NCBI GenBank assembly: GCA_002401455.1
Contig: NVTE01000007.1
Coordinates: 22,721 to 86,720, forward strand
Direction: 5' to 3'
Length of the DNA stretch: 64,000 bases
From: Alphaproteobacteria bacterium
GTDB lineage: Bacteria; Pseudomonadota; Alphaproteobacteria; Sphingomonadales; Emcibacteraceae
A program made the position numbers and the translations under genes. Positions 24,140-44,842 of the stretch are shown here, in pieces; position 1 is the stretch's first letter; each line of letters opens with the position of its first letter. Below the pieces are notes generated by a model, which had not been told where the DNA came from, searched no databases, and was given only the letters and a program-made list of their open reading frames with translations.

Positions 24140-25528
24140 GTGATAGTCAGATACCTGGACCCGCTCGAAAGATTGGAATATGAAGTCATTCAACGGCGGC
24201 AAGAAGGCAGCGAATTCCGTGATCTTCAGGCCAGTTTCAAGGACCTGAAGACTAAACCAGCGGAGGACGCCCGTCAGGAGGCCGACAAAATTCTGCGTCA
24301 GTTGATGGACAAAGACGCCGCCACACCAATCCTATCCAGCGCTGAGCCTGATGACCTGGATGCCATCAGGCAAGCCAGCACTGCCCTCCAAAATTCCTCC
24401 GTTCCCGCTCCGGCCCATAGCCTGAATGACGCCGACCTTTATGACAGAATTCTCGGCGGGTGGCTTGGCCGTTCGGCGGGCTGCCTCCTGGGTAAACCGG
24501 TCGAACGTTATATGCGGCCTGTGCTCAGGGAAATGCTGGAATCCAATAACAATTGGCCCCTGGATCATTACTGGACTCAGGACGGCATGCCCCAGGAAAT
24601 CCTGGACCTCTACCCCTGGAAACAGCGTCTGGGACTTGAAAGTCTGCGGGAAAACATTGACGGCATGCCCGAAGACGACGACCTGAATTATGTCATGCTG
24701 AACCTGCATATCATGGAAAACCATGGTTACGGCTTCAGCAGCAGTGACGTGGCGACCGCCTGGTTAACCAAGCTACCCGCTTTTCAGCTTTTCACCGCCG
24801 AACGCGTGGCTTATTTCAACCTACTGGACGGCCGCGATGCCCCGAATTCCGCCCGCCACATGAACCCGTTCCGGGAATGGATCGGTGCACAAATCCGGGC
24901 CGACCTCTGGGGCTATGTCTGCCCCGGCAATCCCCTGCTTGCCACAGAGCTGGCCTGGCGGGATGCCCGGATCAGCCACAGCCGCAACGGCATATACGGC
25001 GAAATGTTTTATGCTGCCCTCATTGCCCAGGCCTTTGTAGAATCCGACCCACGCCGCCTGGTGGAAACGGCCCTAAGCTATATCCCAGCGCAATCCCGAC
25101 TGGCCCAAGCCATTACCATCATCCTCGACCTGCCGATCAGCACGCTGAGCTGGGAAGTGGTTCTGGATAAGCTTGAAGATCATTTCGGCACCTATCACTG
25201 GGTCCATAGCATAAATAATGCCGCCCTGACCGTCGCGGCCTTGCTCGCCGGGGATGGTGATTTTGAGAAAACCATCTGCGCTACCGTGATGGGCGGATGG
25301 GATACGGATTCCAATGGGGCCACCGCTGGCTCCATCATCGGCATTATTCAAGGGGCCAAAGCCCTGCCAGAAAAATGGATTTCCCCTCTGAACAATACAA
25401 TCCGCTCAAGCCTGGGCGGGTTTGACAATGCCCTTTTTACCGACCTCGCCCGCCGGACACTTATGGTGTCACAACGGCCTGTGGATCATAAATCATCGGG
25501 TCCTATGGGCCTATCCAATGACTTTTAA
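24140..25528 (+). CDS. ADP-ribosylglycohydrolase-family protein, variant
   Basis: A 462-residue member of the ADP-ribosylglycohydrolase (ARH/DraG) fold, whose members hydrolyse N- or O-ribosyl bonds using a metal pair. Residues 1-100 are a charged extension; the catalytic fold begins at YDRILGGWLGRSAGCLLGKPVE. The usual TDDT metal motif is replaced by MPEDDDLNYVML, while the C-terminal motif GGWDTDSNGATAGSIIG is intact. The start is a GTG; the first in-frame ATG is about 55 codons later. The gene precedes a second family member by 14 bp. Together with a ribokinase it suggests hydrolysis of a ribosylated small molecule, not protein de-ADP-ribosylation. Confidence 0.85.
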   Translation: MIVRYLDPLERLEYEVIQRRQEGSEFRDLQASFKDLKTKPAEDARQEADKILRQLMDKDAATPILSSAEPDDLDAIRQASTALQNSSVPAPAHSLNDADLYDRILGGWLGRSAGCLLGKPVERYMRPVLREMLESNNNWPLDHYWTQDGMPQEILDLYPWKQRLGLESLRENIDGMPEDDDLNYVMLNLHIMENHGYGFSSSDVATAWLTKLPAFQLFTAERVAYFNLLDGRDAPNSARHMNPFREWIGAQIRADLWGYVCPGNPLLATELAWRDARISHSRNGIYGEMFYAALIAQAFVESDPRRLVETALSYIPAQSRLAQAITIILDLPISTLSWEVVLDKLEDHFGTYHWVHSINNAALTVAALLAGDGDFEKTICATVMGGWDTDSNGATAGSIIGIIQGAKALPEKWISPLNNTIRSSLGGFDNALFTDLARRTLMVSQRPVDHKSSGPMGLSNDF

Positions 25529-25542
25529 TAAGGAATATAGTA

Positions 25543-26538
25543 ATGACGACGCCAGCAAAGAATAAATTTGACCTCTCCCCAGAAGAATTTAAAGACAAGG
25601 CGGCTGGCTGCCTGATTGGTCTGGCTATTGGCGATGCCTTTGGCGATGCCGCCCGCGACCCGGAAAACCAGTTCCTGTATGGCATCACCATGGATTTCCC
25701 TGAAAAGCCAACCGCCAGTACCGATGACACGGAATTTGCCCTGCTGACAGCAGAAATTCTGCTCAAATCACAGGGCAACCCCAGCCGGGAAGATGTGACT
25801 GAAGCCTGGAAATCTCATGTGATCGTCCAGGACAAATTAACCCGGGGCGGCGCCAGTGAGCGCGAAGCCGCCACCAATGTCAGACGCGGCATCCTGCCAC
25901 CTGAATCCGGTCAATATAATACCTATGCCGCCAGCGACGGTGCCGCCATGCGGTCAGCGCCAGCCGGTATTGTTGCCGCCGGAGATCCCGACCTGGCCGC
26001 AGAGCTTGCCGAACGGGACGCGGAAATCAGCCATTGGGCCGAAGGCATCTGGGGCGCCCAGGCCGTTGCCTCCGCCGTAGCCGTAGCCCTGGCCGGTGGT
26101 AGCGTTGAAGAAATCTTTGCCGAAGGCATGCGCCGGGCCCCCGAAGGAAGCTGGTTTTTGCATAACTTCACACAGGCTGTTGCCCTGATGGAGAAACACG
26201 ACCATGACCTGAATGCCGTATGGATGCCCCTGCATCAATTGCTGCGCGGCGAATATAAAGCCTCCGTGCCTGAGGCCGTTGTCTCGGCCTTTTGCGTCTT
26301 CCTGCTGACCAAGGGTGATTTTAGGGATGGCATCGTATATTCCGGTAATTTCGGTCGGGATTCCGATACCATTGGCGCCGTGACCGGTGCCCTGGCCGGG
26401 GCCATGTGCGGTCTGTCAGGCATTTCGGATAATTGGGTAGAGCGGGTTAGACAGCCCAGCGGCACCTGTCTTCAATTCACGGCTGACCATGACATTGTCG
26501 ATGTTGCCCATAAGCTGACCGCCCTCCGAAAATCATAG
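25543..26538 (+). CDS. ADP-ribosylglycohydrolase-family protein, canonical
   Basis: A 331-residue ARH-fold hydrolase with all canonical metal motifs: CLIGLAIGDAFGDA near residue 25, ASTDDTEFALL near 70, and GRDSDTIGAVTGALAGAMCG near 275. It lies 14 bp after the variant paralogue and has AAGGA upstream of the ATG, so the two are co-transcribed and may act together or on successive bonds. The length is usual for single-domain members. A strong hairpin terminator follows. The substrate is not predictable; ribosyl nucleoside-like compounds or ADP-ribose adducts are candidates. Confidence 0.88.
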   Translation: MTTPAKNKFDLSPEEFKDKAAGCLIGLAIGDAFGDAARDPENQFLYGITMDFPEKPTASTDDTEFALLTAEILLKSQGNPSREDVTEAWKSHVIVQDKLTRGGASEREAATNVRRGILPPESGQYNTYAASDGAAMRSAPAGIVAAGDPDLAAELAERDAEISHWAEGIWGAQAVASAVAVALAGGSVEEIFAEGMRRAPEGSWFLHNFTQAVALMEKHDHDLNAVWMPLHQLLRGEYKASVPEAVVSAFCVFLLTKGDFRDGIVYSGNFGRDSDTIGAVTGALAGAMCGLSGISDNWVERVRQPSGTCLQFTADHDIVDVAHKLTALRKS

Positions 26539-26723: not shown

Positions 26724-27233
26724 TCAGAAACCCGGGGTTTCATTCACCTTTCCAAGGCTGTCAACAGAACGTCTGTTACCCTGCATAGGGGGAAAAAAGT
26801 TAACCAAAGTCAGCATATATTTATTATAAAAGGGAGGCAACGGGGATCGATGGTCGACAACATCTGTAAAATTCCTGGGCTTAATCTTTCCTGGTGTCAT
26901 TCTAAGGTGACTGGCCATGGGGAAAAATCCATAAATGCGCTGCCCCACTTTGACATCATCACACTGACTTTCAACGACATCAGCCATCCCCCAGACAGTG
27001 AGCTTGCCCCAGCCCTCCTCGCCGGTTGGAAAATAGTTCCAATAATCAATCCTATCATCTGATACAGCATAATCAACAGGGTTGGACATCAGGCAATATT
27101 TGTCGATAGAGACCACAATCTCGCCGTCCGAGAGCGGACCCAGGAACTTTCTGACCCGCTTAGTATCACGGTAATTATGGCGATTTACCCATATTTCAGT
27201 GATGTCCATAGATGAGCCCTGCTTGCCCGTCAT
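26724..27233 (-). pseudogene. truncated DUF2855 oxidoreductase-like gene
   Basis: The 169-residue frame begins like DUF2855 proteins, which are MDR/quinone-reductase-like and about 360 residues long: DGEIVVSIDKYCLMSNPVDYAVSDD, DYWNYFPTGEEGWGKLTVWG, ADVVESQCDDVKVGQRIYGFFPMASHL, and RSPLPPFYNKYM. After about residue 137 the similarity stops and 30 unrelated residues lead to a stop; the C-terminal nucleotide-binding half is absent from this region. It is most likely a decayed remnant. The start is coupled to the stop of the upstream GST gene (1 bp apart). Confidence 0.65.
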
Positions 27234-27234
27234 C

Positions 27235-28392
27235 TTATTTGCCCCAGACTTCTAAATGATTTTTCCGCTCCACCCGCCGGGTTGTCCGCACCCTGAGCAG
27301 CGGCTCCAGATGGGTCTCGGTCAAGACAGACAGCATAGTTTTCCGCGCCGGGTCCGCCCCACCATCAAAATGATCCTGGAGCCGCTGGAGAACATAGAAT
27401 CGATAGGGCATGACGGCTGATGTCAGGGACTGCCCCCGCCAGGTGAAGGTGCACATGCCGATGGTGCGCGCCGCCGGATCATCAAGGCCATTGGTGCCCG
27501 CTTCCAGATCAGGACGCCGCGCCAGCCAACCATTGGCATGGTCAACATGGGCCGTAATCTCCGGCAGATATTCCTCTGCCACATAGCGCATCAGAGCTGT
27601 TAAGGTCCCGGGAATCTTATGATCCTGAAACAGGTCTGTTCCCTGGGCCCCCTGAATATGGTCAATATAATCATGGGGGGCGTTCATGCGCTCAATCCAG
27701 CGAAAGACATGAGGAGCATTTTTCTGCATAAGCGCCAGGGGATAAGGGTCGCGGCCAAGGTGGGCCGACAACGGGCCAAACAGGCCATAGTCGCCAATGG
27801 TCGCCCGGCCCCCGAGCAGGTAAGGCGTGTCCTGAAAATGGGCCTCTAACAGGTCGAGGAATTCGGTGTAACTTTGTTCAATCGCCGGGATGGTCTCAGC
27901 CGTCACCCCGAACGCCACCGCCGCCTTCCGCATCCGGCCACTGGCCAGAAGGAAAGCCCCCTCCTTTTGCTCTGGGGCCAGGCCCTCAGGCAGGCCATCG
28001 GCGAAGGTGGTACGGATAAAATCAAGATTTTCCTGATCAAAATTCCAGCGGTAATGCATGGCCGGACGCAGCAGGCCTTCATTTCCGAACAGTTCGAAGA
28101 CATGGGCAATTACCTGCATCAAAGAACTGTCACACTGGAGGGAGGTTTTGGCCTCGCCGCTCTCCTCTAAATAATCCAAAATATGAATGCCATCCTGAAA
28201 CAACCGACCCTCCGGCGTTTTGACAACAGGAATGATCCAACGCCCCACCTCGGGCAATACATTTTGGGTAAACTCATCCCTGCCCGGCGCAACCTCCCTA
28301 AAGGGGATATTCTGCTGGCGCATATAGGCGCGGACCTTGGCCGTATAAAGCGACGCTGTCATCCCATATAGGGTAAAAGGTTTCCGGCTCAT
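27235..28392 (-). CDS. glutathione S-transferase family protein, long form
   Basis: A 385-residue protein with an N-terminal thioredoxin-like GST domain (FTLYGMTASLYTAKVRAYMRQQNIPFREV, then RWIIPVVKTPEGRLFQDGIHILDYLEE with the conserved cis-Pro and Asp-Gly-Ile pocket) and an enlarged helical C-terminal region with GRATIGDYGLFGPLSAHLGRDPYP. Ordinary GSTs are about 210 residues, so the last 150 residues are extra. AAGGAG 6 nt upstream of the ATG at 28392 fixes the start. The divergent spacer to the next GST carries a 17-bp palindrome shared with other promoters of this module. The glutathione-conjugated or reduced substrate is unknown. Confidence 0.82.
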   Translation of the reverse strand: MSRKPFTLYGMTASLYTAKVRAYMRQQNIPFREVAPGRDEFTQNVLPEVGRWIIPVVKTPEGRLFQDGIHILDYLEESGEAKTSLQCDSSLMQVIAHVFELFGNEGLLRPAMHYRWNFDQENLDFIRTTFADGLPEGLAPEQKEGAFLLASGRMRKAAVAFGVTAETIPAIEQSYTEFLDLLEAHFQDTPYLLGGRATIGDYGLFGPLSAHLGRDPYPLALMQKNAPHVFRWIERMNAPHDYIDHIQGAQGTDLFQDHKIPGTLTALMRYVAEEYLPEITAHVDHANGWLARRPDLEAGTNGLDDPAARTIGMCTFTWRGQSLTSAVMPYRFYVLQRLQDHFDGGADPARKTMLSVLTETHLEPLLRVRTTRRVERKNHLEVWGK

Positions 28393-28433
28393 TCTACACT
28401 CCTTGATAATCCTTGACGATTCCATTTGTCTAT

Positions 28434-28450
28434 TGACATATATTGTGTCA
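28434..28450. promoter_or_regulatory. operator copy 1, TGACATA-N3-TGTGTCA
   Basis: TGACATA-TAT-TGTGTCA, a 17-bp palindrome with one mismatch, lies between the two divergent GST genes and overlaps a TTGACA -35-like hexamer (28433-28438). The same palindrome occurs at 36138, 36955 and 36986. Likely operator for the TetR encoded at 29168-29758. Confidence 0.7.
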
Positions 28451-28501
28451 TAACTTTTTCAAATACCATTCTTTTTTTGAAAAACTTTCTGGAGTGTACC
28501 A

Positions 28502-29137
28502 ATGAGCCTGACTTTTTATGATTTCACCATGGCCCCGAGCCCGCGGAGAACCCGGATCCTGCTGGCGGAAAAAGGCATCGCCCATCAGGTGGTCCAGGTC
28601 GATATGATGAAGGCAGAGCAGATGGGTGGTGACTTCAGAAAAATCAATCCTGACTGTACGTTGCCGACCCTGAAACTGGATGACGGGACGGTTCTGACCA
28701 ATGTGGCTGGCATCACCGCATGGGCAGAGGCGACCTATCCGGAACCCGCGATGATGGGGACCACGCCGCTGGAAAAAGCCGAGATTGCCACCTGGGTATC
28801 GATGGCAGAACAGGATCTGGGAATGGCAATTCCAAATGCCTTCCGCAACACCAATCCCGCCATGAAAGACCGCGCCCTGCCCGGCCCGGTGAATTACTGC
28901 CAAATTCCAGAACTGGCCGACCGGGGGCTGAAAATGATTGATGCCTTCATAGTCAAGCTGGAAAGCCACCTCGAAGGCCGGGATTTTGTAGCGGCGGATC
29001 AGTTTTCCGTAGCGGATATCACCGTTGTCTGCTTTCTGGATTTTGCCCGGGTTGTCGGCAAGAAAATTCCTGAGGATTGCCCCAATTTAAAACGCTGGCG
29101 CAAGCACCTTGGCACCCGGCCCAGCATTAACCTGTAA
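28502..29137 (+). CDS. glutathione S-transferase
   Basis: A 211-residue cytosolic GST. The N-terminal thioredoxin fold starts LTFYDFTMAPSPRRTRILLAEKGI, with NPDCTLPTLKLDDGTVL carrying the cis-Pro, and the helical domain includes GRDFVAADQFSVADITVVCFLDFARVVG, the conserved N-capping box and hydrophobic staple. GGAG 7 nt upstream supports the ATG. It is divergent from the long GST, shares an operator with it, and is convergent with the TetR gene. GSTs of this kind can cleave ether or halide bonds as well as conjugate glutathione; no substrate can be inferred. Confidence 0.9.
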   Translation: MSLTFYDFTMAPSPRRTRILLAEKGIAHQVVQVDMMKAEQMGGDFRKINPDCTLPTLKLDDGTVLTNVAGITAWAEATYPEPAMMGTTPLEKAEIATWVSMAEQDLGMAIPNAFRNTNPAMKDRALPGPVNYCQIPELADRGLKMIDAFIVKLESHLEGRDFVAADQFSVADITVVCFLDFARVVGKKIPEDCPNLKRWRKHLGTRPSINL

Positions 29138-29167
29138 TATTGGTCCCTATACCCGCCTGAACCCGAC

Positions 29168-29758
29168 CTAATTTAACGGAATGACGACGGAGACCATCTT
29201 GATCATGACCTGTCTGGTCGTCGCCGCGTCCAGGCCCTGGAGTTCTGTTAACCTGCGCCACATTTCAAAAGAAACGGACGCATCAACTGCTTCCCGATCG
29301 ACGACAGACAGCTCTTTCAGCTCTGGAACCAGATGGTCAAAATCGGCCCGCAGGTTTTTTTGAAGGCCGGCATACATATCCCGCAGTATTTTATATTCCC
29401 AGCGCTGACTTCTGCCCGACAAGAGAATATTCTGGTGCTTCTCGTAAACCTGAATACGGCAGTCGACCCCGTGATGAACCCGAATCTCCAGCGAGCCTGT
29501 CCGGTCCCCCCCTATGATAAGCGGGGTGCTCTCAATATAAATTTCTTCTGTAACAAGGGAGAACAGGCTTTCCATATCATCAAAATGCCGGAAGACGGTT
29601 CGGATACCAACCCCCGCCCTGTCGGATACAGACTGGGCTGTAGGCACGAGAATACCTTCCGCGATCAACTCAATCATCGCCTTGAGGATCGCCCCCCGGC
29701 TGCGCGCGCTTCTGGCGCGGCGGCCATCTCCTGCCTTTGCCGTTTTCTTTTCAGTCAT
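29168..29758 (-). CDS. TetR-family regulator of the sulfatase/GST module
   Basis: A 196-residue TetR-type repressor. The N-terminal helix-turn-helix is RRARSARSRGAILKAMIELIAEGILVPTAQSVSDRAGVGIRTVFRHFDDMESLF; the remainder is a helical ligand-binding domain. AAAGGG 6 nt upstream favours the ATG at 29758 over the in-frame ATG at 29773. It is the last gene of the seven-gene minus-strand operon, whose promoter carries one of four copies of a 17-bp palindrome, which would make it autoregulated. This is inference from position. Confidence 0.9.
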   Translation of the reverse strand: MTEKKTAKAGDGRRARSARSRGAILKAMIELIAEGILVPTAQSVSDRAGVGIRTVFRHFDDMESLFSLVTEEIYIESTPLIIGGDRTGSLEIRVHHGVDCRIQVYEKHQNILLSGRSQRWEYKILRDMYAGLQKNLRADFDHLVPELKELSVVDREAVDASVSFEMWRRLTELQGLDAATTRQVMIKMVSVVIPLN

Positions 29759-29814
29759 ATCAGGCCCTTTCATAACAACATCCCCCTGTCGCGGGAGTGC
29801 CGTGCCTATTTGGT

Positions 29815-31092
29815 CTATTCACTAATCAAAGACCCATCCGTAATCAATCTTTTAATTTCTCTGGCCACCAGCCATAATCGGTCCTGGCCCCACAGCGCCA
29901 GCACCGGCGCACCCTTTTCATCCAGCAGCCGGAAACTGGGCACGCCCCATAAGCCCGCCTGATAGAGAGTGCGCCTATTTTCTTCCAGCATGTCCTGCCA
30001 GTTGTCGTCCCTGCCCATGCGCACACACGCTTCCGCCCACTCCAAACCAGCCATGTCGACCACTTTTTTCATACCGCAGCGCCTGTTGGTGTTGATACCC
30101 AGAACAAACGCGGCTTTCAGAAATGCACTGATCAAAGCGTTACCCTTGCCCTGCTCGACCGCCCAAGGATAGAGCGAATAACAAGCTATCACTGGATCCC
30201 CAATGGGGTCATAAAAATTACCGTATGCCACGCCCGCGTCACGGGCCTCTCTGGCGGCGTCCTTGAAGATATAAATTCCTTTGACCCGGGTCACCGGCAC
30301 CCCGCGCATCACCATCGGCAAAACCGGCTTCACCACCAGCTTGACCCCGGTATCTTCGGCCAATCGGACAACCCGGTCAAAGACTATGGCGGTGTAGGGG
30401 CTACGGAGCGAGGGATAGAATTCAAGGGTCAAACGGCCCTGATCTCTCACCCTCCCGATCTCCACCAAGGGTCTCGGGGCCACCAGCGGTGTCCAGGGCC
30501 TGGTGTCCGCCCCCAGGCTGGCCAGGCGTTTTTCCAGGTGATAGAGCCGGTCGACGCCCCCATACCATTCCCCTTCATAAAAAAACATCGCGCCGGAATA
30601 ATGCCCAAGCTCCTGACGGCGTCTATTGCCGGCCTCAAGGCGATCCGACAACGCCCCCTGGCCCGCTCCACCATACAGGTTTTGAAGGTCGGTCAGTGCC
30701 TCTGGCGGACAGGCCTTGGGCGCTTCCAGACCATAATAGGGCGCAATTTTCGCCGCGTCCCTGTGGGCATAGGCGGCCAATAATTCGGGCTCCGGGGCAT
30801 TATTGCCCAAGGATGCTGTCACCAGATGGCAGATAATATTGACATCATAACGTTCAGCCAGTCGCGGCAGCATCTGCACCGCTATTTGGGAGTAGCCGTC
30901 ATCGGCCTGATGAAAATACTCAACCACATGGCGGCGGCCTTGTTTCTGGCGCCGGGCTTCGGCTTTTTTACGGGCCTTCTGGACCGCGGCGTCACTGGCT
31001 ATTTTAGTGACAATTTTCGAGGTCAGATAGCGAACAAAAGCGGACGGTGTGCTGGTGGACGCGCCCTTCTGCTGAGTAACCCGGTCTGTCAT
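29815..31092 (-). CDS. DsbA / HCCA-isomerase-like (kappa-GST-type) protein
   Basis: A 425-residue protein with two thioredoxin-like parts. After a basic N-terminus, the first (about residues 55-120) begins HVVEYFHQADDGYSQIAV; the second (about 220-415) begins LTLEFYPSLRSPYTAIVFDRVV, where the Ser-Pro-Tyr motif is that of 2-hydroxychromene-2-carboxylate isomerases and kappa-class GSTs, and it ends with GLWGVPSFRLLDEKGAPVLALWGQDRL, the family's cis-Pro segment. The enzymes use glutathione as cofactor in aromatic-ring degradation. The start overlaps the upstream sulfatase stop (ATGA), so the two are translationally coupled. The large Cys-poor architecture is unusual. Confidence 0.78.
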   Translation of the reverse strand: MTDRVTQQKGASTSTPSAFVRYLTSKIVTKIASDAAVQKARKKAEARRQKQGRRHVVEYFHQADDGYSQIAVQMLPRLAERYDVNIICHLVTASLGNNAPEPELLAAYAHRDAAKIAPYYGLEAPKACPPEALTDLQNLYGGAGQGALSDRLEAGNRRRQELGHYSGAMFFYEGEWYGGVDRLYHLEKRLASLGADTRPWTPLVAPRPLVEIGRVRDQGRLTLEFYPSLRSPYTAIVFDRVVRLAEDTGVKLVVKPVLPMVMRGVPVTRVKGIYIFKDAAREARDAGVAYGNFYDPIGDPVIACYSLYPWAVEQGKGNALISAFLKAAFVLGINTNRRCGMKKVVDMAGLEWAEACVRMGRDDNWQDMLEENRRTLYQAGLWGVPSFRLLDEKGAPVLALWGQDRLWLVAREIKRLITDGSLISE

Positions 31093-32876
31093 GACGACCC
31101 GCTGCCCCTCTTTTTCAGACGCCAGGCCACGACGAAGGGCGCAAGGATAAGTAGCGTCAGCAGAAAAATCACCAAGCCTTTGCTTAATCTTTTCTGCATG
31201 GAATTCAGGATGATCTGACGCATATAATTATAGCTATCGGGCACCTCAATCACGCCATTTTCTACTGCCCATGTGTGATAGTGATTAAGCATCGTCTGAA
31301 AGCGGATCGGTATCTGGGCACTCAAGTCCGTGGTCTCGCCGGGGTCGCGCACAATATCATACAGGTGCCAGGAGCCGTCGCCCATCGGGGTGCGGATTTT
31401 AACAATCTTATGATCACCCATAAACAGCGCCTTATGCCCTGCCAGCTCATAGCCAACCGGATCATTCTCGCCATACACGTCGTCCGCAATTCCGGTCACG
31501 ACCGGCATTAAATCGCGGCCAATCATGGGCTCAATGGGGCGTCCGGCATAACGGCCCGTCGGGGCTCTAACCCCGGTCAGGCTGAGGATTGTCGGGGTAA
31601 TATCCGTGGCAAAAGAAAAGGCGGATGAGAGTTTATTCTGGTTTGGGAGGTTGGCCCCGGAAATAATCAACGGCACCCGCATACCGCCTTCACCGGTGTA
31701 AAATTTATACAGGGAAAGCGGCGATGATGATGCGCTGGCAAAGCTTCTGCTCAAGGCATTATAACTGCCCTTCAGCCCCAGGGTTTCATAGTCCGATGAA
31801 TAGTTCATTTGTCCATTGGTAAAGCGGCTGATCAGGTCTTTTTGATTATGCCGACCTGACGAATGAGTGCCATTGTCTGAGGTAAAAATGAAAATCGTAT
31901 TGTCAAATTCACCGGTGCTTTTCAGATGATCGATCAGCCGGCCGATGTTATGATCCATCGCTTCGACCATGGCCGCGTAAACAGCCATGCGTTTTGCCTG
32001 ATAACGTTTCTCGGCCGCCGACTGTGCGTCCCAATCTTCTGTTGAGCTCATGGGGGCCATTTTAGTATCCGCCGGCACGATGCCTTTTTCAATAGCCCCT
32101 TTTAAGCGCGCCGTCCGGAGCGCGGCCCAGCCTTGATCATAAACCCCCTTATAATGATCGATAAATTCCTGGGGGGCCTGCACCGGGATATGGACCGCCT
32201 GAAACGAGAGAAAGGCAAAGAAAGGCTGGTCGTCGTCAGCATTTCCGCCAATAAATTCAATCATTCTGTCTACTAGGTAGCGCGAAGAATAAAAGTCCTC
32301 GGGCAGAGTGAATTCCTCCCCGTCAGCATACCAACTGGCCTTTTTATACAGCGGCATATAGGGCCTTTGCTGCCAGTTATCAGCGCCACTGTCGGCCAGG
32401 GCCACGGTACGCTCAAAACCACGGCGGAAAGGCAGCAGATCCGGTGTTTGACCCAGATGCCACTTGCCGGACAAATAGGTGTGATAGCCGCTATCCTGCA
32501 GCAGGGTGGCCACCGTGACCACATTACGGCCCAGAACCCCCTTATAGCTGACATGGCCCCGGGCTTCCACATGAACGGTCTCCGGAATATTGCCGACCCC
32601 GGCCTTGTGATTGCTCACCCCGGTCAGCAACATGGCGCGGGCAGGCGCACAGTTGGCCGCAGTATGATAATTGGTAAAGCGGATGCCTTGATTAGCCAGG
32701 GCGGTGATATTGGGGGTGGAGATTTCGCTGCCATAACTGGCCAAGTCAGAATAGCCCAGGTCATCGGCCAGGATGAACACAATATTGGGCCGTTCTGGAA
32801 GCTCCCCCGCTGTGGCCCCCTGCCCCGTAACGACAAAAGTAACGACCAGAAGGCACCATCTGAGCGCTGTCTTCAT
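31089..32876 (-). CDS. arylsulfatase, C-terminally membrane anchored
   Basis: A 595-residue type I sulfatase, hydrolysing sulfate esters outside the cytoplasm. It has a signal peptide (ALRWCLLVVTFVVTGQGATA), the metal-binding RPNIVFILADDLGYSD, the modified-cysteine motif NCAPARAMLLTG, GKWHLG, and TSDNG. A hydrophobic helix near the end (LVIFLLTLLILAPFVVAW) followed by a basic tail anchors it in the inner membrane. The ATG at 32876 overlaps the upstream stop by ATGA, which decides the start over an earlier in-frame one. The cysteine must be converted to formylglycine by an FGE, none of which is convincingly encoded here. Confidence 0.92.
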   Translation of the reverse strand: MKTALRWCLLVVTFVVTGQGATAGELPERPNIVFILADDLGYSDLASYGSEISTPNITALANQGIRFTNYHTAANCAPARAMLLTGVSNHKAGVGNIPETVHVEARGHVSYKGVLGRNVVTVATLLQDSGYHTYLSGKWHLGQTPDLLPFRRGFERTVALADSGADNWQQRPYMPLYKKASWYADGEEFTLPEDFYSSRYLVDRMIEFIGGNADDDQPFFAFLSFQAVHIPVQAPQEFIDHYKGVYDQGWAALRTARLKGAIEKGIVPADTKMAPMSSTEDWDAQSAAEKRYQAKRMAVYAAMVEAMDHNIGRLIDHLKSTGEFDNTIFIFTSDNGTHSSGRHNQKDLISRFTNGQMNYSSDYETLGLKGSYNALSRSFASASSSPLSLYKFYTGEGGMRVPLIISGANLPNQNKLSSAFSFATDITPTILSLTGVRAPTGRYAGRPIEPMIGRDLMPVVTGIADDVYGENDPVGYELAGHKALFMGDHKIVKIRTPMGDGSWHLYDIVRDPGETTDLSAQIPIRFQTMLNHYHTWAVENGVIEVPDSYNYMRQIILNSMQKRLSKGLVIFLLTLLILAPFVVAWRLKKRGSGSS

Positions 32877-33259
32877 GACCGGGCCTTTTGGCATATTTTT
32901 GCACTGCCGAAATACCATAGCAGGGCAATCAGGACTTCCGGGGCAATCAAAGCCCCCGCGAAGCTCGCATCATAAAGCAGCCAGGCCAGCACCCGGCCGA
33001 GCGCGGTTAAGGCCAGCATGATCACAGGCGGGTAAAACCAGGTCCGATTTTCGGTCACGACCCCCATCAATGCACAGAGGCCGAGGGTTAAGAAGAAGGC
33101 TGACATATCCCCGATCTGGGAGCTTAAGCCGACACCGTCCATCAGGGTCAGGCCCAACTCACCTGCGATCCCCGTAGGCGCGACAATCCAGCGCAAGCCC
33201 ATGGTGATAAACAGGATGGCGGGCAGGATAAGCAGTATCCGGATAATTTTTATCATCAT
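32873..33259 (-). CDS. small four-helix membrane protein (DUF4345-like)
   Basis: A 128-residue integral membrane protein with about four hydrophobic helices (IIRILLILPAILFITMGLRW, SAFFLTLGLCALMGVV, PPVIMLALTALGRVLAWLL, IAPEVLIALLWYF). The organisation and the ALGRVLAWLLYD motif resemble DUF4345 proteins, whose function is unknown. It is embedded in the sulfatase operon, overlapping the downstream sulfatase start. Confidence 0.7.
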   Translation of the reverse strand: MMIKIIRILLILPAILFITMGLRWIVAPTGIAGELGLTLMDGVGLSSQIGDMSAFFLTLGLCALMGVVTENRTWFYPPVIMLALTALGRVLAWLLYDASFAGALIAPEVLIALLWYFGSAKICQKARS

Positions 33260-33270
33260 AGTATTTCCCC

Positions 33271-33531
33271 TTACCCCTGATCATTATGTGTTTGGATGCG
33301 GTGCTGCAACAGCTTGATATGCAGCATGCCAAAAACAAATGAATTGACATAATCCTTCGGGCAGCGATGCCATTTCCGAAACAGAAATATTTCCACATGA
33401 TGGAACAGAACAAACACCGCGCCGATAATTTTAAAGACATCGGCGTAGATCACCTGATCCGGTGCAATAAAAGCGGCCCCGGCCATTACCCATAGCCCAA
33501 TCAAAAAAGCCTTCAACGCGAATATTATCAT
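33271..33531 (-). CDS. small membrane protein (DUF1145-like)
   Basis: An 86-residue membrane protein with two to three helices and the segment KIIGAVFVLFHHVEIFLFRKWHRCPKDYVNSFVFGMLHI, resembling DUF1145 proteins of unknown function. GGGAA upstream supports the ATG. It lies 3 bp after the PfpI-like gene and 11 bp before the DUF4345-like gene, so it is part of the operon. Confidence 0.65.
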   Translation of the reverse strand: MIIFALKAFLIGLWVMAGAAFIAPDQVIYADVFKIIGAVFVLFHHVEIFLFRKWHRCPKDYVNSFVFGMLHIKLLQHRIQTHNDQG

Positions 33532-33534
33532 GTT

Positions 33535-34392
33535 TTATTTCCCCTTCTTATCAGCAATAAGCTTCATCATAGCATGGGCTGTTTCCAGCCCTGAATTCTG
33601 GTTCTGCCCGGTGACAAACCGCTTTTCATCATCAATGGTCACATGGGTGGCGAGGAAATCCCGGAATCTTGTACTGCTCTCAAAAACCACGCCTGATTTT
33701 CTCAGCTCTGCTTCCGGATGCAGGGGCGTGACCTCAATGCGCAGCTCCTTGAGTTGCTTATCCGTGACCCCGGTCATCCGGCGGCCCTTGATCAGCAGGT
33801 TGCCCGCATGGTCCTGAGCCTTGATCAGCCCCAATACCCCGTGGCATACCCCGCCGATCACGGCTTGATCCCCATAATAGGCTTCACTGATTTTCTGGCC
33901 CAGCACCTCAGATTGTCCAAGATCATAGGCCGCGCCCCAGCCCCCGGCTAAAAAGATGATGTCATAGGCGGTAAAGTCCACATCATCGATCTTCAATGAG
34001 GTCTTCACTTTAGCGCGAAAGATGTCATCTTTCAGAAACCGATCGTCTTCCGGGGACGCGATCATATAATAAAAACTTTGCGGATCTATGGGTATCTCCC
34101 CGCCGTTGATACTGGCCACATCAACCTGCATCCCGCCGTCCAGAAAGGTATAATAGGGATGGGTCATTTCAGAGGCAAACACCCCCGTTGCCGTGCCTTC
34201 CGTTTCCCCGACCGGTGCCAGAACACTGTGGCTGGTGGTAATAATCAGCGCGCGTTTACCCGGCAGTTTCACCGTATCCCCGGTATACACAGGATGCAGG
34301 CCCTGGCTATGCAGAATGGCCGGCAGGGCCATCAGGAAAACGGCCAATACCGCGACAATAACCGCCGCTGTTATTTTGGTTCTCTTCGTCAT
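33535..34392 (-). CDS. membrane-anchored DJ-1/PfpI amidotransferase-like protein
   Basis: A 285-residue protein with an N-terminal membrane anchor (AAVIVAVLAVFLMALPAIL) and a DJ-1/PfpI (class I amidotransferase-like) domain close to Hsp31/glyoxalase III types: RALIITTSH, FAVA-like ASEMTHPYYTFLDGGMQVDVASINGG, DIIFLAGGWGAAYDL, and the nucleophile elbow GGVCHGVLGL with the Cys-His pair. Related enzymes detoxify reactive carbonyls or act as chaperones. The location in the cell envelope and in a sulfatase operon are unusual. AAGGAA precedes the ATG. Confidence 0.85.
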   Translation of the reverse strand: MTKRTKITAAVIVAVLAVFLMALPAILHSQGLHPVYTGDTVKLPGKRALIITTSHSVLAPVGETEGTATGVFASEMTHPYYTFLDGGMQVDVASINGGEIPIDPQSFYYMIASPEDDRFLKDDIFRAKVKTSLKIDDVDFTAYDIIFLAGGWGAAYDLGQSEVLGQKISEAYYGDQAVIGGVCHGVLGLIKAQDHAGNLLIKGRRMTGVTDKQLKELRIEVTPLHPEAELRKSGVVFESSTRFRDFLATHVTIDDEKRFVTGQNQNSGLETAHAMMKLIADKKGK

Positions 34393-34411
34393 GTCATTTC
34401 CTTAGGCTCGG

Positions 34412-36076
34412 TTAATTAGGCCAATAAATAAACGCATCGCCCTTTTCGTAGCCTTGATTGAGCGGCTTGTCGATCATGACCGGGGCATAGAGGGTCGACG
34501 GATAGATCGGCCCGCGACCAGAAGCGATATGAGCCGTTATCAAGCCCTGTAACTCGGCCAATTTTTTGGGGTTTTTTTCGGCTAAATTTACCCGTTCCGT
34601 CGGATCGGCAGCCAGGTCATAGAGCCATTTTTTCGCTGGCTTTTCGGATACCTGTAATTTCCAGTCGCCCAGCCTGACCCCCCGGTAAAAACTGCTTTGC
34701 CAATAAATCGGCCGTTCCGGCAATTGAGCTTGACCACGCGCCAGCGGCAACAGGTTCACCCCATCAATGACCAGCCCCTCCGGCAGGGTGACCCCGGCGG
34801 CAGCAGCCATGGTTGGCAAGAGGTCAATATGGGACACCGGCGCTTCAGCGCGGCTTCCGGCGGGAATTTTCCCTGGCCATTTAACAAACATCGGCACCCG
34901 GATGCCCCCTTCGAAGAAGGTTAACTTCCACCCCCGGTACGGTTTGTTGACCTCGGGCAGGCCAATATAGCCCGGCGCGCCATTGTCATTGGTCAGAATA
35001 ATCATGGTATTTTCGGCCAGGCCTTCCGCCTTCAGGGTCTCTTCGATCTTGCCGATACTGCGGTCCAGTGCCCGCATCATCGCCGCATAAACCCGCAGGC
35101 GATGGGGTTTGATATCCCCGACAGCCTCATAATCCTCCCGGGTTGCCTGAAGCGGCGTATGCAGGCCCCAGTGGGCAAGATATAGAAAGAACGGCCGGTT
35201 TTTATTGGCCTTGATAACCTTGATGCTCTCCTCCGTCCAATAATCGGTCAGATATCCTCTGGGCTCAAAAGCCTGATCATAGCCGGCATCATTAAAAGAG
35301 GCTGAATAGCGCAGGCGAGCCCATAAAAATTTATCAATCGGGTCAAAATCCAGCTTGGCATTGACCACATTTTCATCATCCTCTGGCAGATAGAGGCCAC
35401 TGTGCATCAACAGGCTTTCATCAAAGCCCTGGTCATTGGGCGCCATGCCCTGCCCCCGGCCCATATGCCACTTGCCAATATGAACCGTATGGTAGCCCTG
35501 GTCTTTAAGCAACTCGGCAATGGTCACTTCACTGGACGGCAATCCCTGCTCATCAAAAGGCAGGGCGGCCTCCTCAGCAATTTCGTTGATTTCTGCCGGC
35601 GGCAATCCACTATCAAGACTATTAAAAATAGTCGCCAGCATGCCCTGCCCGCCCGGGAAGGGCGTGAATTCATAGCCTGTGCGCGTGGGATAGCGTCCGG
35701 TCATCATCATCCCCCGTGACGGGGCACAGGTGGCATTACCGGCATATGCCTGGTTAAAGATCATGCCTTCTGCCGCCAGCGCATCGATATTCGGCGTTTT
35801 CAGCCTGCCGTCTGCGATCCCCCCGCCAAAGCTGGAGATATCGTTAAGACCAACATCGTCGAGAACAATGAAGATGATATTCGGCGCCCGCTCTGATGCC
35901 CCATCTCCGGGCAAGGCCGGTCCTGCCTGCCATGTGATTTCCCGATTTGGCGCGACATCATACGCCCTCTGGGTCTTAAACTTCACCAGGGTCAACATAA
36001 TATCGATCTTATGAGACCAGCCGACGAATCCAATCAGGACTATGACCACGACCAAACCGAAAACCATTTTTTTCAT
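34412..36076 (-). CDS. arylsulfatase (periplasmic, signal-anchored)
   Basis: A 554-residue type I sulfatase with an N-terminal signal/anchor helix ([17 protein letters not shown]), [18 protein letters not shown], the canonical formylglycine motif [29 protein letters not shown], and [10 protein letters not shown]. It would release sulfate from an aryl or alkyl ester in the periplasm. It is the first gene of the seven-gene minus-strand operon; the 131-bp spacer to the divergent GST contains the perfect copy of the palindromic operator. The substrate is unknown. Confidence 0.94.
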
Positions 36077-36137
36077 GCTCTATCTCATCTTCCTGTACAG
36101 CAATTTACGTGAAAACACGCCAACACTTTAAATGTAT

Positions 36138-36154
36138 TGACATAACTTATGTCA
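36138..36154. promoter_or_regulatory. operator copy 2, TGACATA-ACT-TATGTCA
   Basis: A perfect 17-bp palindrome between the divergent sulfatase operon (start 36076) and GST gene (start 36208). TTGACA at 36137-36142, overlapping it, could be the -35 of the GST. Identical arms to copies 1, 3 and 4 within one or two bases. Confidence 0.75.
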
Positions 36155-36207
36155 TATTGTTAACTTGGTGTCTAGAAGAAATAGAAATGTGTCCAAGGAT
36201 AACAAAT

Positions 36208-36891
36208 ATGATTACTTTATACACCGCCCCCACCCCAAATGGTCACAAAGCCTCCTGCACGTTAGAGGCCTTGGGGTTTGATTATGATGTCAAACTCGTC
36301 AACCTGATAGCGGGCGATCAAAAGAAACCCGACTTCCTTACCATTAATCCCAATGGACGCATTCCGGCGATTGTCGATCATGACGCCGATGACTTTGCCA
36401 TCTTTGAATCCGGGGCCATCATGGTTTATCTGGCTGAAAAAGCCGGCAAACTCCTGCCAACTGACGCCAAAGGCCGCTCCGAAGTAATGCAGTGGCTGAT
36501 GTTTCAGATGGGCGGTATCGGCCCCATGATGGGACAGGCCAATGTTTTTTATCGCTACTTCCCCTTGACGATACAGCCGGCCATCGACCGCTATCAAAAT
36601 GAAAGCCGCCGTCTGTTTGAGGTCCTCGATAGCCACCTGAAAGATCGTGAATGGCTGACAGAGGCGTATTCTATCGCTGACATCGCCAACTGGTGCTGGG
36701 TGCGAACCCACAAGTGGTCCGGGGTTTCTGTGGACGGCCTGGATAACCTGACCCGCTGGAGCGAGGCTATGATCAAACAGCCTGGCATGTCAAAAGGCAT
36801 TGATGTGCCCTTCCCCATGGAGAACCTGCTGAAAGATGAGGCCAAAGCCGAAGAGTTCAAGAAAAATGCCCGAAAGCTTTTGCAAAAATAA
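36208..36891 (+). CDS. glutathione S-transferase (YghU/Ure2-like)
   Basis: A 227-residue GST. The N-terminal domain reads [32 protein letters not shown], then [38 protein letters not shown]; the Asn in TPNGHK and the following pattern are those of the nu-class/Ure2p-like GSTs, which have disulfide-reductase or peroxidase activity. AAGGA 8 nt upstream supports this ATG; the frame extends 33 codons further upstream across the operator, which is not plausible as protein. It is divergent from the sulfatase operon. Confidence 0.9.
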
Positions 36892-36954
36892 TCCATAACT
36901 AATGACCAAGTAGAATCATTTCACGTCACTCATAAAATTATACCCTTGGTATAT

Positions 36955-36971
36955 TGACATAAACTATGCTA
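36955..36971. promoter_or_regulatory. operator copy 3, TGACATA-AAC-TATGCTA
   Basis: TGACATA-AAC-TATGCTA, upstream of the TonB receptor; left arm perfect, right arm with two mismatches. TTGACA at 36954-36959 overlaps it. Its centre is 31 bp from copy 4, about three helical turns. Confidence 0.6.
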
Positions 36972-36985
36972 ATACAATGTATTAA

Positions 36986-37002
36986 TGACATAGACTATGC
37001 CA
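36986..37002. promoter_or_regulatory. operator copy 4, TGACATA-GAC-TATGCCA
   Basis: TGACATA-GAC-TATGCCA with one mismatch in the right arm, 48 bp before the receptor ATG. Together with copy 3 it forms a tandem site before the receptor gene. Confidence 0.65.
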
Positions 37003-37049
37003 ATACATCATAAGGGAAGATGCAAAAATAAGTAAGTAAAGGGAGAACA

Positions 37050-39671
37050 ATGAAAAAATACACCGGATATTTAGCGGCGACTTCAGCGATGGCGTTAACC
37101 GCAACACTGGCCCTGGCCAACCAGGCCACAGCCCAAGAGGATGATAAGTTTGTCCTGGAAGAAATCATCGTCAGCGCCACCAAGCGCCAAACCACGTTGC
37201 AGGACACCCCAGTGTCCGTGTCTGTGACCAGCCAGAGGACAATTCAGGAAGCCCGAATTTTTGACCTGAAAGACTTACAATCTGTCATCCCCTCCCTGCG
37301 GGTCAACCAGTTGCAGACATCAACAAATACCAATTTCATCATTCGCGGCTTTGGCAATGGCGCCAACAATGCCGGGATTGAATCCTCCGTTGGTATGTTC
37401 ATTGATGGTGTTTACCGGTCGCGTGCCGTGGCCCGTATGGGCGATCTGCCAAAATTGGAGCGCGTCGAGGTACTTCGCGGGCCGCAAAGCACCCTTTTCG
37501 GGAAAAATGCCTCCGCTGGCGTGATTAACATCATTTCTGCCAAGCCGACCTTTGACAATGAAGGCTACGTTGAGGCTGGTTACGGAAATTTCAATGATGT
37601 CTCGGCCAGAGGATATTTTTCCGGCGGCCTGTCAGAAACGGTAGCGGTCAGTATTGGCGGCAGCTTTAACAAACGTGACGGCTATTCAGAAGCCCTGTTA
37701 GAGGGCCTGGAAAAAGTCAATGACCGCAATCGCTGGAACATCCGCGGGCAACTGCTGTTCACCCCCAGTGACACCACCAGCATCCGCATCATCGCAGACT
37801 ATACCGCCATTGATGAAATTTGCTGTACCGTCACCAACTACCAGAATGAAGGCGCGTCAAATATCATCCAGGCCCTTGGCGGCCAGATGGCCGATCCAAA
37901 TGATCCCCATAAGCTTCTGACCCACTATAATAAAGATCCTAAAAACACAGTGGACGACTTTGGCTTTTCCCTTCATGTGGATCATGACTTCGGGTCCGTT
38001 ACCCTCTCCTCGATCACCGCTTACCGGGGCAATGACTCACTGAACGATTTTGATGCTGACTTTACCACGCTGGACATCATGTCCACCTCGTCAGACGTTA
38101 ACATCAAAACCTTTACCCAGGAATTCCGCCTGGCCTCAACCGGCGACAATACCCTTGACTGGATGGCCGGGGCGTTCCTGATCAGGGACAAAGTCAAGAC
38201 CGACGATGGCCTGACATGGGGAACGGGTACCCGCGCTTATATGGATGCGCTGGCGGGCAGCCCTGCCCTGTTGAGTGTACTTGAAATGTTCAATGGATTT
38301 GCTCCGGGCACCTTCTTCGGCACGGGTGTGGATGCCCATGAAAAATTTAAGCAGGATAATACCGCCATCTCCCTCTACGGGACGGTCGATTATCATGTCA
38401 CCGATCGCCTGACCCTTACCGGGGGCCTGAACTATACCAAGGATAAAAAGACCTTAACCGGGGCCCAGACCGGCATCGACCCGTGGATGCAGCTCGACCT
38501 GGCCACAGCGGGCGGCACGGACCTGCTGACCAATGGCCAGATTGCCGCCGCCTATGGCGACCCGACAAGTGCCGTCTTCCAAGGCTTTATGGGGGCCTTT
38601 GGTATTCCCCTGACGGCTGGAACCCATAACCTGATCGCCAGTGGTGGCCTAGGCCCCGCAGCGCAACAAGGTTATTTGCTGGGCTTTTTCCCCTCCATTA
38701 AACAGGGCCTGATTTCCTCACTTCAGGGGCTTCAGTTCATCCCGGGCATGCTGGACTTCCCCAATGGCATTGAAAGTGGCAAAACCAATGATAGCGACCT
38801 GACCTGGAACATCCGGGTCAACTTTGAAGTCAATGATAATGTCACGGTCTATGGCGGGGCCTCCACCGGCTTCAAGTCCTCCTCCTGGAACCTGTCCCGG
38901 GCCTCCAAGCCCTTCTTTAAGGATGGCGCTGCCCTGGCGGCTGAAGGCCTGCTCCCCAACAATTATATTGTCGGGCAGACCCTGGCGACCTCGAAGAACT
39001 TTGGCACCCGCTTTGCCAGCCCGGAAGAATCCATCGTCTATGAAATTGGCCTGAAGGCCCGGTTTAATCGTGGAGCCATCAACATCGCCATCTTTGACCA
39101 GACCATCAAAGGTTTCCAGTCCAATACCTTCCTCGGCGATGGTTTCTCGCTGACCAATGCGGGCGAGCAATCAACAAAAGGTGCTGAAGTCGATGTGACC
39201 TGGGTGCCCGTTGACCGACTGACGCTGACCTTTGCCGCGACCTACCTGGATGCCATATACGATTCATTCCTGACCGGCCCAGGACCAAATGGGTCAGTCG
39301 AGGACCTCTCCGGCGAGCGCCCTGCGGGTATTCCGGAATGGGCTACCTCGGTTGGAGCCGCCTATAACTTCGAGATCGGTGAGGCCGCCGCCTATATCCG
39401 CGGTGACTGGCAGTATGAGAGCAACATTCGGACCAACGAAGCGATCTTCGCTGTCGCAGGGACGGTCCAGCCCTACCGTAAAATCAGCACTTTCAATGCC
39501 AGTGCTGGCATTTCCTGGGAAAGTGGTCTGAGTGCTCAGGTCTGGGCCCGCAACCTGTTCAATGATGAATATGTCAACACGGTATTCCCCGGCGTTCTGC
39601 AGCCTGGTGTGATTAACGGCTATCGGAACCCCCCGCGCACATTTGGCCTGTCCGTGCGTCAGACATTCTAG
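37050..39671 (+). CDS. TonB-dependent receptor of the sulfatase/GST module
   Basis: An 873-residue outer-membrane receptor with a signal peptide (ATSAMALTATLALANQATAQ), a plug domain beginning EEIIVSATKRQTTLQDTPVSVSV with RVEVLRGPQSTLFGKNASAGVINIISAKP, and a barrel ending in Phe (SVRQTF). AGGGAG precedes the ATG. Tandem palindromic operators upstream link its expression to the sulfatase and GST genes, so it probably imports the sulfated or aromatic substrate. The ligand is not predictable from sequence. A strong terminator follows 70 bp after the stop. Confidence 0.95.
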   Translation: MKKYTGYLAATSAMALTATLALANQATAQEDDKFVLEEIIVSATKRQTTLQDTPVSVSVTSQRTIQEARIFDLKDLQSVIPSLRVNQLQTSTNTNFIIRGFGNGANNAGIESSVGMFIDGVYRSRAVARMGDLPKLERVEVLRGPQSTLFGKNASAGVINIISAKPTFDNEGYVEAGYGNFNDVSARGYFSGGLSETVAVSIGGSFNKRDGYSEALLEGLEKVNDRNRWNIRGQLLFTPSDTTSIRIIADYTAIDEICCTVTNYQNEGASNIIQALGGQMADPNDPHKLLTHYNKDPKNTVDDFGFSLHVDHDFGSVTLSSITAYRGNDSLNDFDADFTTLDIMSTSSDVNIKTFTQEFRLASTGDNTLDWMAGAFLIRDKVKTDDGLTWGTGTRAYMDALAGSPALLSVLEMFNGFAPGTFFGTGVDAHEKFKQDNTAISLYGTVDYHVTDRLTLTGGLNYTKDKKTLTGAQTGIDPWMQLDLATAGGTDLLTNGQIAAAYGDPTSAVFQGFMGAFGIPLTAGTHNLIASGGLGPAAQQGYLLGFFPSIKQGLISSLQGLQFIPGMLDFPNGIESGKTNDSDLTWNIRVNFEVNDNVTVYGGASTGFKSSSWNLSRASKPFFKDGAALAAEGLLPNNYIVGQTLATSKNFGTRFASPEESIVYEIGLKARFNRGAINIAIFDQTIKGFQSNTFLGDGFSLTNAGEQSTKGAEVDVTWVPVDRLTLTFAATYLDAIYDSFLTGPGPNGSVEDLSGERPAGIPEWATSVGAAYNFEIGEAAAYIRGDWQYESNIRTNEAIFAVAGTVQPYRKISTFNASAGISWESGLSAQVWARNLFNDEYVNTVFPGVLQPGVINGYRNPPRTFGLSVRQTF

Positions 39672-44176: not shown

Positions 44177-44842
44177 CTATTTTGTCCCAAGCGCGGCAGG
44201 AGCTGCCGTCCCCCCGGAATATGTCCCCAGGATGAGCCGCAGAACGGCGCGCATCCCCTGATCAAATTCAGCATGATTTTCGGCGGTATGCAGCAGGCCC
44301 TCTGCCGCCACACCGATGGTCAGCACCGCATCGTCGCGCCATTGCGCGTCAGCCTCACCGAGATTTTCCTGTAACGCCTCCCCGATCCGCCGGTTGATCC
44401 GGGCCCACAATTTATGGCACATATCTTTCGCCTGAACGTTGGCCAGGGCAATAATTTCGTGGCTGTGGGGAGAAGCCCGCAGGTCATCCACATGCTGGCC
44501 GCACCAGATATCCATGGCCATATGCAGGCGGTTCTCCAGACTCAAGTTTTTGTCATTGAGCGCCTCGTAGCCCGCGACCTCTGACCTTTCAATCCAAAAT
44601 TTCACCGTTGCCCGAAACAGGGCATCCTTGGTTTTATGGCGCTTATACAGAGCCTGGCGCGAGATTCCGATCGCCCCGGCGACATCGTTCATGGAGGTTT
44701 TGCGGTAGCCATAGCGCATGAACACATCCATGGCATCCTGCATGGCCTGCTCATAGTGGCATCCGATGGGGGGAGGGGCATCTTTCATGGGACGTAGTTG
44801 ACAGATTACATCTATTTTGTCAACCTTAGTTTTATCGACCAT
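44177..44842 (-). CDS. TetR-family regulator of the RND operon
   Basis: A TetR regulator of up to 221 residues: AMQDAMDVFMRYGYRKTSMNDVAGAIGISRQALYKRHKTKDALF is the DNA-binding domain, and the rest is helical. Two ATGs are possible, 44842 and 44788 (MKDAPPPIG); neither has a good ribosome-binding site. A GTTGACA-N14-TGTCAAC palindrome lies between them, so if the later one is used the palindrome would be an upstream autoregulatory site. It is the first gene of the TetR-MFP-RND operon and probably represses it. Confidence 0.9.
   Translation of the reverse strand: MVDKTKVDKIDVICQLRPMKDAPPPIGCHYEQAMQDAMDVFMRYGYRKTSMNDVAGAIGISRQALYKRHKTKDALFRATVKFWIERSEVAGYEALNDKNLSLENRLHMAMDIWCGQHVDDLRASPHSHEIIALANVQAKDMCHKLWARINRRIGEALQENLGEADAQWRDDAVLTIGVAAEGLLHTAENHAEFDQGMRAVLRLILGTYSGGTAAPAALGTK
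44797..44824. promoter_or_regulatory. palindrome before TetR/RND operon
   Basis: GTTGACA (44797-44803) and TGTCAAC (44818-44824) are perfect inverted arms 14 bp apart, near the start of the TetR gene. This spacing suits a TetR-type operator. Confidence 0.45.

Follow-up and report, generated by a model that had tools for sequence, protein, structure and literature searches.

Does a short palindrome repeated in front of several genes of one bacterial module mark a single regulon and, if so, which protein reads it? The question is raised by a 64,000-nucleotide stretch of contig NVTE01000007.1 (positions 22,721 to 86,720), hereafter the window, from an alphaproteobacterium of the family Emcibacteraceae. 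The window carries a group of sulfatase, glutathione S-transferase (GST) and TonB-receptor genes together with the gene of a TetR-family regulator. The original prediction, made from the sequence alone, was that four copies of the 17-base-pair (bp) palindrome TGACATA-N3-TATGTCA, at 28434, 36138, 36955 and 36986, occur only in the promoters of this module and are read by the TetR protein, uniting import, desulfation, glutathione chemistry and their own repressor in one regulon. Comparison with related and distant genomes points the same way: it is highly likely that the TetR protein is the repressor of three GSTs, the receptor and the sulfatase operon to which its gene belongs, and that a compound of the pathway releases it.

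A 23-bp palindrome confined to one module

The coordinates and letters of the four predicted copies are all correct, and the site is real. Only the copy at 36138, however, is a perfect 17-mer, those at 28434 and 36986 having one mismatch and that at 36955 two, and the conserved length is 23 bp rather than 17. The symmetry continues into the flanks, giving TATTGACATA-N3-TATGTCAATA, which relaxes to TATTGRCAYA-N3-TRTGYCAATA after cross-genome comparison. The predicted operators are the following:

28431..28453, no strand: predicted operator O1, TATTGACATATATTGTGTCATAA, between divergent GST genes
36135..36157, no strand: predicted operator O2, TATTGACATAACTTATGTCATAT, between the sulfatase operon and a GST gene
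36952..36974, no strand: predicted operator O3, TATTGACATAAACTATGCTAATA, upstream member of the pair before the TonB receptor
36983..37005, no strand: predicted operator O4, TAATGACATAGACTATGCCAATA, downstream member of the pair, 31 bp from O3

With up to three mismatches the 17-mer is found at 12 places in the window, against a mean of 1.71 and a largest value of 5 in 100 shuffles; with up to two, it is found at five (150 permuted palindromes: mean 0.19, maximum 3). The fifth of these, at 51228 with two mismatches, lies inside a TonB-receptor reading frame and was set aside. Throughout the window's own genome (G000, an assembly of 2.08 Mb, 69% complete), the 17-mer with up to two mismatches occurs at 16 places, versus 3 for the reversed control, and with up to one mismatch at four, three in the module and one just before mutL. 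The 23-mer with up to three mismatches leaves O1 to O4 and nothing else, the reversed control giving none, so that this whole-genome scan bears out the predicted restriction to the promoters of the module. The near-site before mutL (C13:79256 in G000, or L011:9257; one mismatch to the 17-mer) is devoid of the TAT/ATA flanks; it was rejected as a fifth member and is probably due to chance. A matrix built from 23 distinct sites, none of them from the window's genome, places O1 to O4 first in the 64 kb, at 27.1-30.2 bits, the next place scoring 15.1 and the best of 60 Markov windows 19.3; these sites were first located with the predicted 17-mer, which makes the matrix test partly circular for the core.

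Could the four copies nevertheless be a product of chance or a repeat artefact, that is, AT-rich promoter DNA in which TTGACA meets its complement? TTGACA is also the -35 consensus, and there is the additional near-match before mutL. This explanation was rejected on the shuffles, the matrix ranking, the contrast between four sites and a control of zero in the own genome, the recurrence of the sites at orthologous promoters and the absence of the 23-mer from all 58 GST loci that have no TetR homologue (both described below), and its probability is negligible.

The module and its orthologous promoters

The module comprises the following genes:

27235..28392, minus strand: long GST of 385 amino acids (aa; Pfam), with O1 upstream
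28502..29137, plus strand: GST of 211 aa (Pfam), with O1 upstream
29168..29758, minus strand: TetR-family regulator (PF00440), last gene of the operon and proposed reader of O1 to O4
29815..31092, minus strand: DSBA-like thioredoxin-fold protein (PF01323), in the operon
31089..32918, minus strand: sulfatase 2 (PF00884; C-x-P-x-R = CAPAR), in the operon
32873..33259, minus strand: small operon protein (DUF4345 match of 19.8 bits, below the curated cut-off of 26.5)
33271..33531, minus strand: unclassified 86-aa reading frame within the operon
33535..34392, minus strand: DJ-1/PfpI-family protein (PF01965), in the operon
34412..36076, minus strand: sulfatase 1 (PF00884; C-x-P-x-R = CAPSR), first gene of the operon
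36208..36891, plus strand: GST (Pfam; the nearest NCBIfam models, YfcG/YghU-like, match under their cut-offs)
37050..39671, plus strand: TonB-dependent receptor (PF00593, PF07715), with O3 and O4 upstream

The sulfatase operon runs leftward from 36076, with short gaps or overlaps between its genes, and ends with the TetR gene, the only regulator that had been noticed in the module and the one TetR regulator that Pfam gives there. Both sulfatases combine PF00884 with the C-x-P-x-R motif and thus qualify as type I formylglycine sulfatases. O2 is 54 bp from the start of the GST gene at 36208, and the four 17-mers stand 42-79 bp from start codons.

If these genes form one regulon, the operator should be shared at orthologous promoters. 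This is what is found in two relatives, G034 and G085, which have four sites each, before the long GST, the sulfatase and the receptor. In G034, of the same order, the operon proteins are 45-71% identical to those of the window, and a perfect 17-mer stands just before the first sulfatase (L138:12521; 23-mer L138:12518-12540). The long GST (56% identical) has the site TATTGACATATTTTGTGTCATAA at L138:1893 (23-mer L138:1890-1912), the window counterpart being TATTGACATATATTGTGTCATAA, and the receptor (66% identical) is preceded by two sites with a spacing of 29 bp. For this long GST, the longest reading frame (L138:694-1950) extends over the site, and the sulfatase frame, whose first start is a GTG, begins 11 bp from its own; the true starts of both genes presumably lie further in. 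The gene order of G034 differs in two respects: a metallo-beta-lactamase-fold gene, in place of the 211-aa GST, lies opposite the long GST, and the orthologue of the GST at 36208 (72%) is found to the left of the receptor's pair, behind a serine-beta-lactamase-like gene, and not beside the sulfatase operon. In G085 the four sites are spread over three contigs, before the long GST (L149:8421), the sulfatase (L148:5648) and, as a pair, the receptor. The spacing of the receptor pair is kept at 29-31 bp in three genomes. Printed side by side and compared by eye, the intergenic surroundings mostly look diverged and the operators are kept.

Genomic association of TetR with the operator

A total of 147 genomes of the order were searched for a homologue of the TetR (E up to 1e-8) and for the 23-mer with up to two mismatches. 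The homologue is found in 22 and the site in 20; 12 genomes have both, ten the TetR only, eight the site only and 117 neither. The site is therefore present in 12 of the 22 TetR genomes versus 8 of the 125 others (odds ratio 17.6, p = 3.4e-7; p = 1.4e-6 without the window's genome; genomes and loci being related, such p-values are not exact). The 22 TetR genomes contain 22 sites and no control place; the 125 others have 11 sites, four of which come from G085, and 14 control places. By manual count, 20 of the 22 sites are on the contig of the TetR gene and within 15 kb of it, and G088 and G115 have theirs on other contigs. When a stricter 23-mer (up to two mismatches) was run over a larger sample, 396 genomes, it gave 18 places in 14 genomes, and the control gave none; 11 of these 14 genomes have the TetR, which in ten of them lies at most 8 kb from a site. 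Within the window's family, the TetR is present in one of the 32 genomes among the 147, so that the module is accessory there, and it was presumably gained horizontally; among 72,556 plasmid records no TetR homologue was found (E up to 1e-5).

The association extends beyond the order. A genome scan with the GST at 36208, from which the best 80 loci were kept (64-76% identical, chosen without regard to motif or TetR), returned 30 loci labelled SAR86, with Zhongshania, Microbulbifer and Halioglobus among the other labels. With up to two mismatches, 22 of the 80 loci carry the 17-mer, 25 copies in all; with up to one, there are 10 copies. The 23-mer with up to two mismatches is present in 14 of the 22 loci that have a TetR homologue (tblastn, E up to 1e-5) and in none of the 58 that do not. 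TetR and site are both present in eight of the 30 SAR86-labelled loci and both absent from 22. Moreover, the site stands directly before the TetR gene in eight SAR86 loci (L047, L048, L055, L057, L058, L059, L063 and L085), and likewise in L075, labelled only Gammaproteobacteria; the TetR proteins of these loci are 30-37% identical to that of the window, and their genes head a cluster with the GST. Among 31 TetR starts checked for sites, a set that counts the window's TetR twice (as L014 and as the window), a distance of 11-75 bp separates the TetR start from the far end of the 17-mer in L033, L034, L047, L048, L055, L057, L058, L059, L063, L075 and L085; in L059 the longest TetR reading frame overlaps the site.

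The same operator emerges when no motif is supplied. A set of 35 non-redundant TetR promoters was assembled from genomes other than the window's, with TetR or GST homology as the sole criterion. Its commonest palindromes are TGACAC-N5, TGGCAT-N5 and TTGACA-N7 (10 each, versus 6-8 reached in 20 shuffles), followed by TGACAT-N5, TGGCAC-N5 and ATTGAC-N9 (9 each); all six are registers of one operator. The degenerate form TTGRCAY-N5-RTGYCAA fits 19 of the 35 promoters with up to two mismatches; 300 permuted words fit 0.40 on average. The only high values among these words (11, 11 and 14) belong to ones a single swap off the operator (such as TTGACRY and TYGRCAT), and the next word reaches 2. An initial run used 38 promoters, of which three (L134-L136) belonged to genomes chosen for their site; it had given a top count of 11, versus 6-9 in shuffles, and a fit of the degenerate form to 20 of 38, with permuted-word highs of 11, 11 and 15 that were likewise one swap off the operator.

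The protein itself has the features of a TetR-family regulator. Its helix-turn-helix matches PF00440 at 27.9 bits, above the cut-off of 24, and the predicted structure is all-helical and TetR-like (mean pLDDT 90.2, pTM 0.81). All 50 Foldseek matches listed bear titles of transcriptional regulators, with TM-scores of 0.45-0.74 and a best E of 3.5e-4. Across 24 aligned homologues there is good conservation of the recognition region, which reads GVGIRTVFRHF in the window and, for example, IGLRTVYRQF or VSPRTVFRCF in others.

Which protein reads the operator?

Several observations weigh against a simple pairing of this TetR with this operator, besides the relatedness of the genomes mentioned above. 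Within the order, 10 of the 22 TetR genomes have no recognisable site, and eight of the 147 genomes have sites and no detected TetR. G085, with its four sites, is one of these eight; it is a 410-contig assembly, and its sulfatase contig stops just past the first gene. The other seven have one two-mismatch place each, which is about the control rate. G186 and G151 also carry a site where TetR was not detected. Beyond the order, 8 of the 22 GST loci with TetR have no recognisable site, and 22 of the 30 SAR86-labelled loci have neither. The SAR86 loci L071 (6344) and L079 (3599) have only weaker sites, with 3 and 4 mismatches to the 23-mer, and no TetR homologue was found in their genomes (E up to 1e-6), as if the operator had degenerated once the regulator was lost; of the nine genomes checked this way, seven have a homologue at E 1.6e-61 or lower, some of them known before. 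The association is thin at the level of the phylum: among 397 genomes, examined with a strict 23-mer and at most eight scored candidates per genome, the site is found in five, two of them among the 18 with TetR and three among the other 379. G443, G490 and G549, three of these five, belong to one family, and their neighbourhoods, compared with the module reference proteins used, gave just one weak match (26%). Furthermore, 16 of the 35 TetR promoters exceed two mismatches, identity to the window's TetR does not exceed about 51% among the homologues seen (L084), no site stands at the start of that TetR gene (best 6 mismatches), and a sigma-70 scan of the window found no good -10 box for the operator hexamers.

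Some of these points would suit a real operator that is read by another protein, the linked TetR being a passenger. The site is kept without a detected TetR in G085, G186, G151 and others, the window's TetR gene has none at its start, and other readers can be proposed: a global or unlinked regulator, the TetR encoded at 44177-44842 or the MalT-like LuxR regulator at 45377-48178, the last two less than 10 kb away. Co-occurrence testing covered, among the candidate regulators, the module's TetR only. Such a reader would nevertheless have to account for the 23-mer being in 14 of 22 GST loci with TetR versus 0 of 58 without, for sites directly before TetR homologues in many loci, and for the fact that promoters selected by TetR or GST homology alone yield the same palindrome. 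We consider it quite improbable that the TetR is a passenger.

The claim of one regulon, read by the TetR, is thus supported by the orthologous promoters, by the co-occurrence and co-localisation of TetR and site, by the sites directly before TetR in eight SAR86 and several other loci, and by the confinement of the operator to the module in its own genome. The gene set served by the four sites is very probably run as one unit.

Position of the operators and a model of control

It had been argued that every copy overlaps a TTGACA-like -35 hexamer, the arrangement of a repressor site. The overlap of letters exists at each copy (ATGACA at 36985), yet these letters belong to the operator itself. 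The sigma-70 scan found no gene-directed promoter with at least 9 of 12 matches built on the operator hexamers; its single match over a site, 36976-37003 on the minus strand, is directed away from the receptor gene, and none of the candidates is convincing. Since the hexamer is the operator itself and has no -10 partner toward the genes, the -35 argument adds little and is weak as evidence for a repressor site. The upstream site of the receptor pair has the same off-consensus arm, TATGCTAATACA, in three genomes (36952-36974, L146:9597 and L147:3327), and this arm may double as a promoter element.

The lack of a sigma-70-like promoter on the TTGACA hexamers, together with the conserved spacing of the receptor pair, would also fit a TetR that acts as an activator, or in a looped complex at O3 and O4, instead of a plain repressor overlapping the -35 box. 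TetR proteins are for the most part repressors, however, and the distances of 42-79 bp between 17-mers and start codons are usual for repressor sites; activation or looping thus seems improbable.

In the model of repression and release, the TetR protein would bind the 23-bp palindrome as a dimer at four places. Bound at O1, it would shut off the two divergent GST genes; at O2, the sulfatase/DJ-1/sulfatase/DSBA/TetR operon and the third GST; at O3 and O4, the TonB receptor. The 31 bp between O3 and O4, about three helical turns, would set two dimers on one face of the DNA. TetR would leave the DNA, and allow the set to be expressed, on binding a compound of the pathway, likely the substrate as imported or after desulfation. 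Binding, dimerisation, repression and the existence of an inducer are inferences. The TetR gene closes the operon read from O2 and its own gene would therefore be under the same control, being expressed along with the set. Palindromic operators are found at TetR's own and neighbouring promoters, but in the window, where the TetR start has no site, autoregulation would rest on the operon promoter at 36138; in the SAR86 loci it would be direct.

The proposed pathway under control

The genes suggest that the module probably imports and degrades a sulfated compound. Elsewhere, the sites lie near genes for an AMP-binding CoA ligase, an acyl-CoA dehydrogenase, an enoyl-CoA hydratase and a saccharopine-dehydrogenase-like protein, and for metallo-beta-lactamase-fold, DUF1330, DUF2855, nitronate-monooxygenase-like and alpha/beta-hydrolase proteins. 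Judged by gene content, these neighbours suit a sulfated hydrophobic compound degraded via CoA esters. The sulfated aromatics that had been proposed as ligands are a guess; given the CoA ligase, acyl-CoA dehydrogenase and enoyl-CoA hydratase, a sulfated lipid or steroid would fit too.

A broader and rather doubtful proposal is that one repressor/operator pair, horizontally shared among the window's lineage, SAR86 and others, runs an undescribed pathway for a sulfated hydrophobic algal compound: uptake by the receptor, two desulfations, several glutathione steps, CoA activation and beta-oxidation. The compound might, within this same tentative proposal, be a sterol sulfate, a sulfoglycolipid or another sulfolipid, possibly halogenated. 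If it were true, the operator would tag the pathway genes throughout a genome.

The sulfatases of the module need an FGE-type enzyme. A protein of 753 aa with an FGE (sulfatase-modifying) domain is encoded at 14566-16827, about 10 kb to the left of the module, and no operator was found near its gene in the window; in G130, a sulfatase-maturation (FGE) gene is inside the cluster. Adjoining the long GST is a DUF2855 gene (26724-27233) that is cut short, covering the first 134 of the 358 residues of the G034 protein, and tblastn (E up to 1) found no further part of it in the window. Immediately beyond this truncated module end come two adjacent ADP-ribosylglycohydrolase genes (PF03747), at 24140-26538. 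On the other side, a second TetR gene (44177-44842) and a divergent MalT-like LuxR regulator gene (45377-48178) are located 5-9 kb to the right of the receptor.

Relation to known systems

The value of the regulon lies in the pathway that it marks. Its palindrome is rare and module-confined in its own genome, and hence can be used to search for a catabolic gene set also present in some SAR86 genomes. A TetR protein with a predicted operator also offers a route to the substrate, through compounds that release the protein from the 23-mer.

In the open PMC literature, covered by titles and the starts of abstracts and with subscription papers mostly outside its scope, nothing was found on this operator or regulon. 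SAR86 is among the most abundant groups of the surface ocean (PMC11582366). According to passages of the same paper, putative arylsulfatases occur in all SAR86 families, possibly acting on sulfoglycolipids, TonB transporters are abundant, and the many GSTs are hypothesised to open hydrophobic compounds to catabolism. TetR is never mentioned in its text, and the passages concerned contain neither the operator nor a link between it and these genes. For the bile-salt cluster of Caenibius tardaugens, passages of PMC12882949 describe a TetR gene (EGO55_16300) beside steroid catabolic genes, palindromic operators proposed for it and an arylsulfatase gene induced on cholate. The proposed operators, ATAGGGCCATTG and GCATGCGGGATGC, are unlike the present palindrome.

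Among regulators of solved structure, MexL, NalC, EthR, KstR and RutR have the same helical fold with an N-terminal helix-turn-helix as the window's TetR. The RutR operator, TTGACCA-NN-TGGTCAA, for which our literature search gave no confirmation, has the start TTGAC in common with the present one. The solved TetR structures among the matches listed are 10-22% identical to the window's protein, and their operators and gene sets differ. KstR, by the title of its structure entry, likewise represses a catabolic gene set. The system described here is a new TetR regulon whose mechanism is ordinary.

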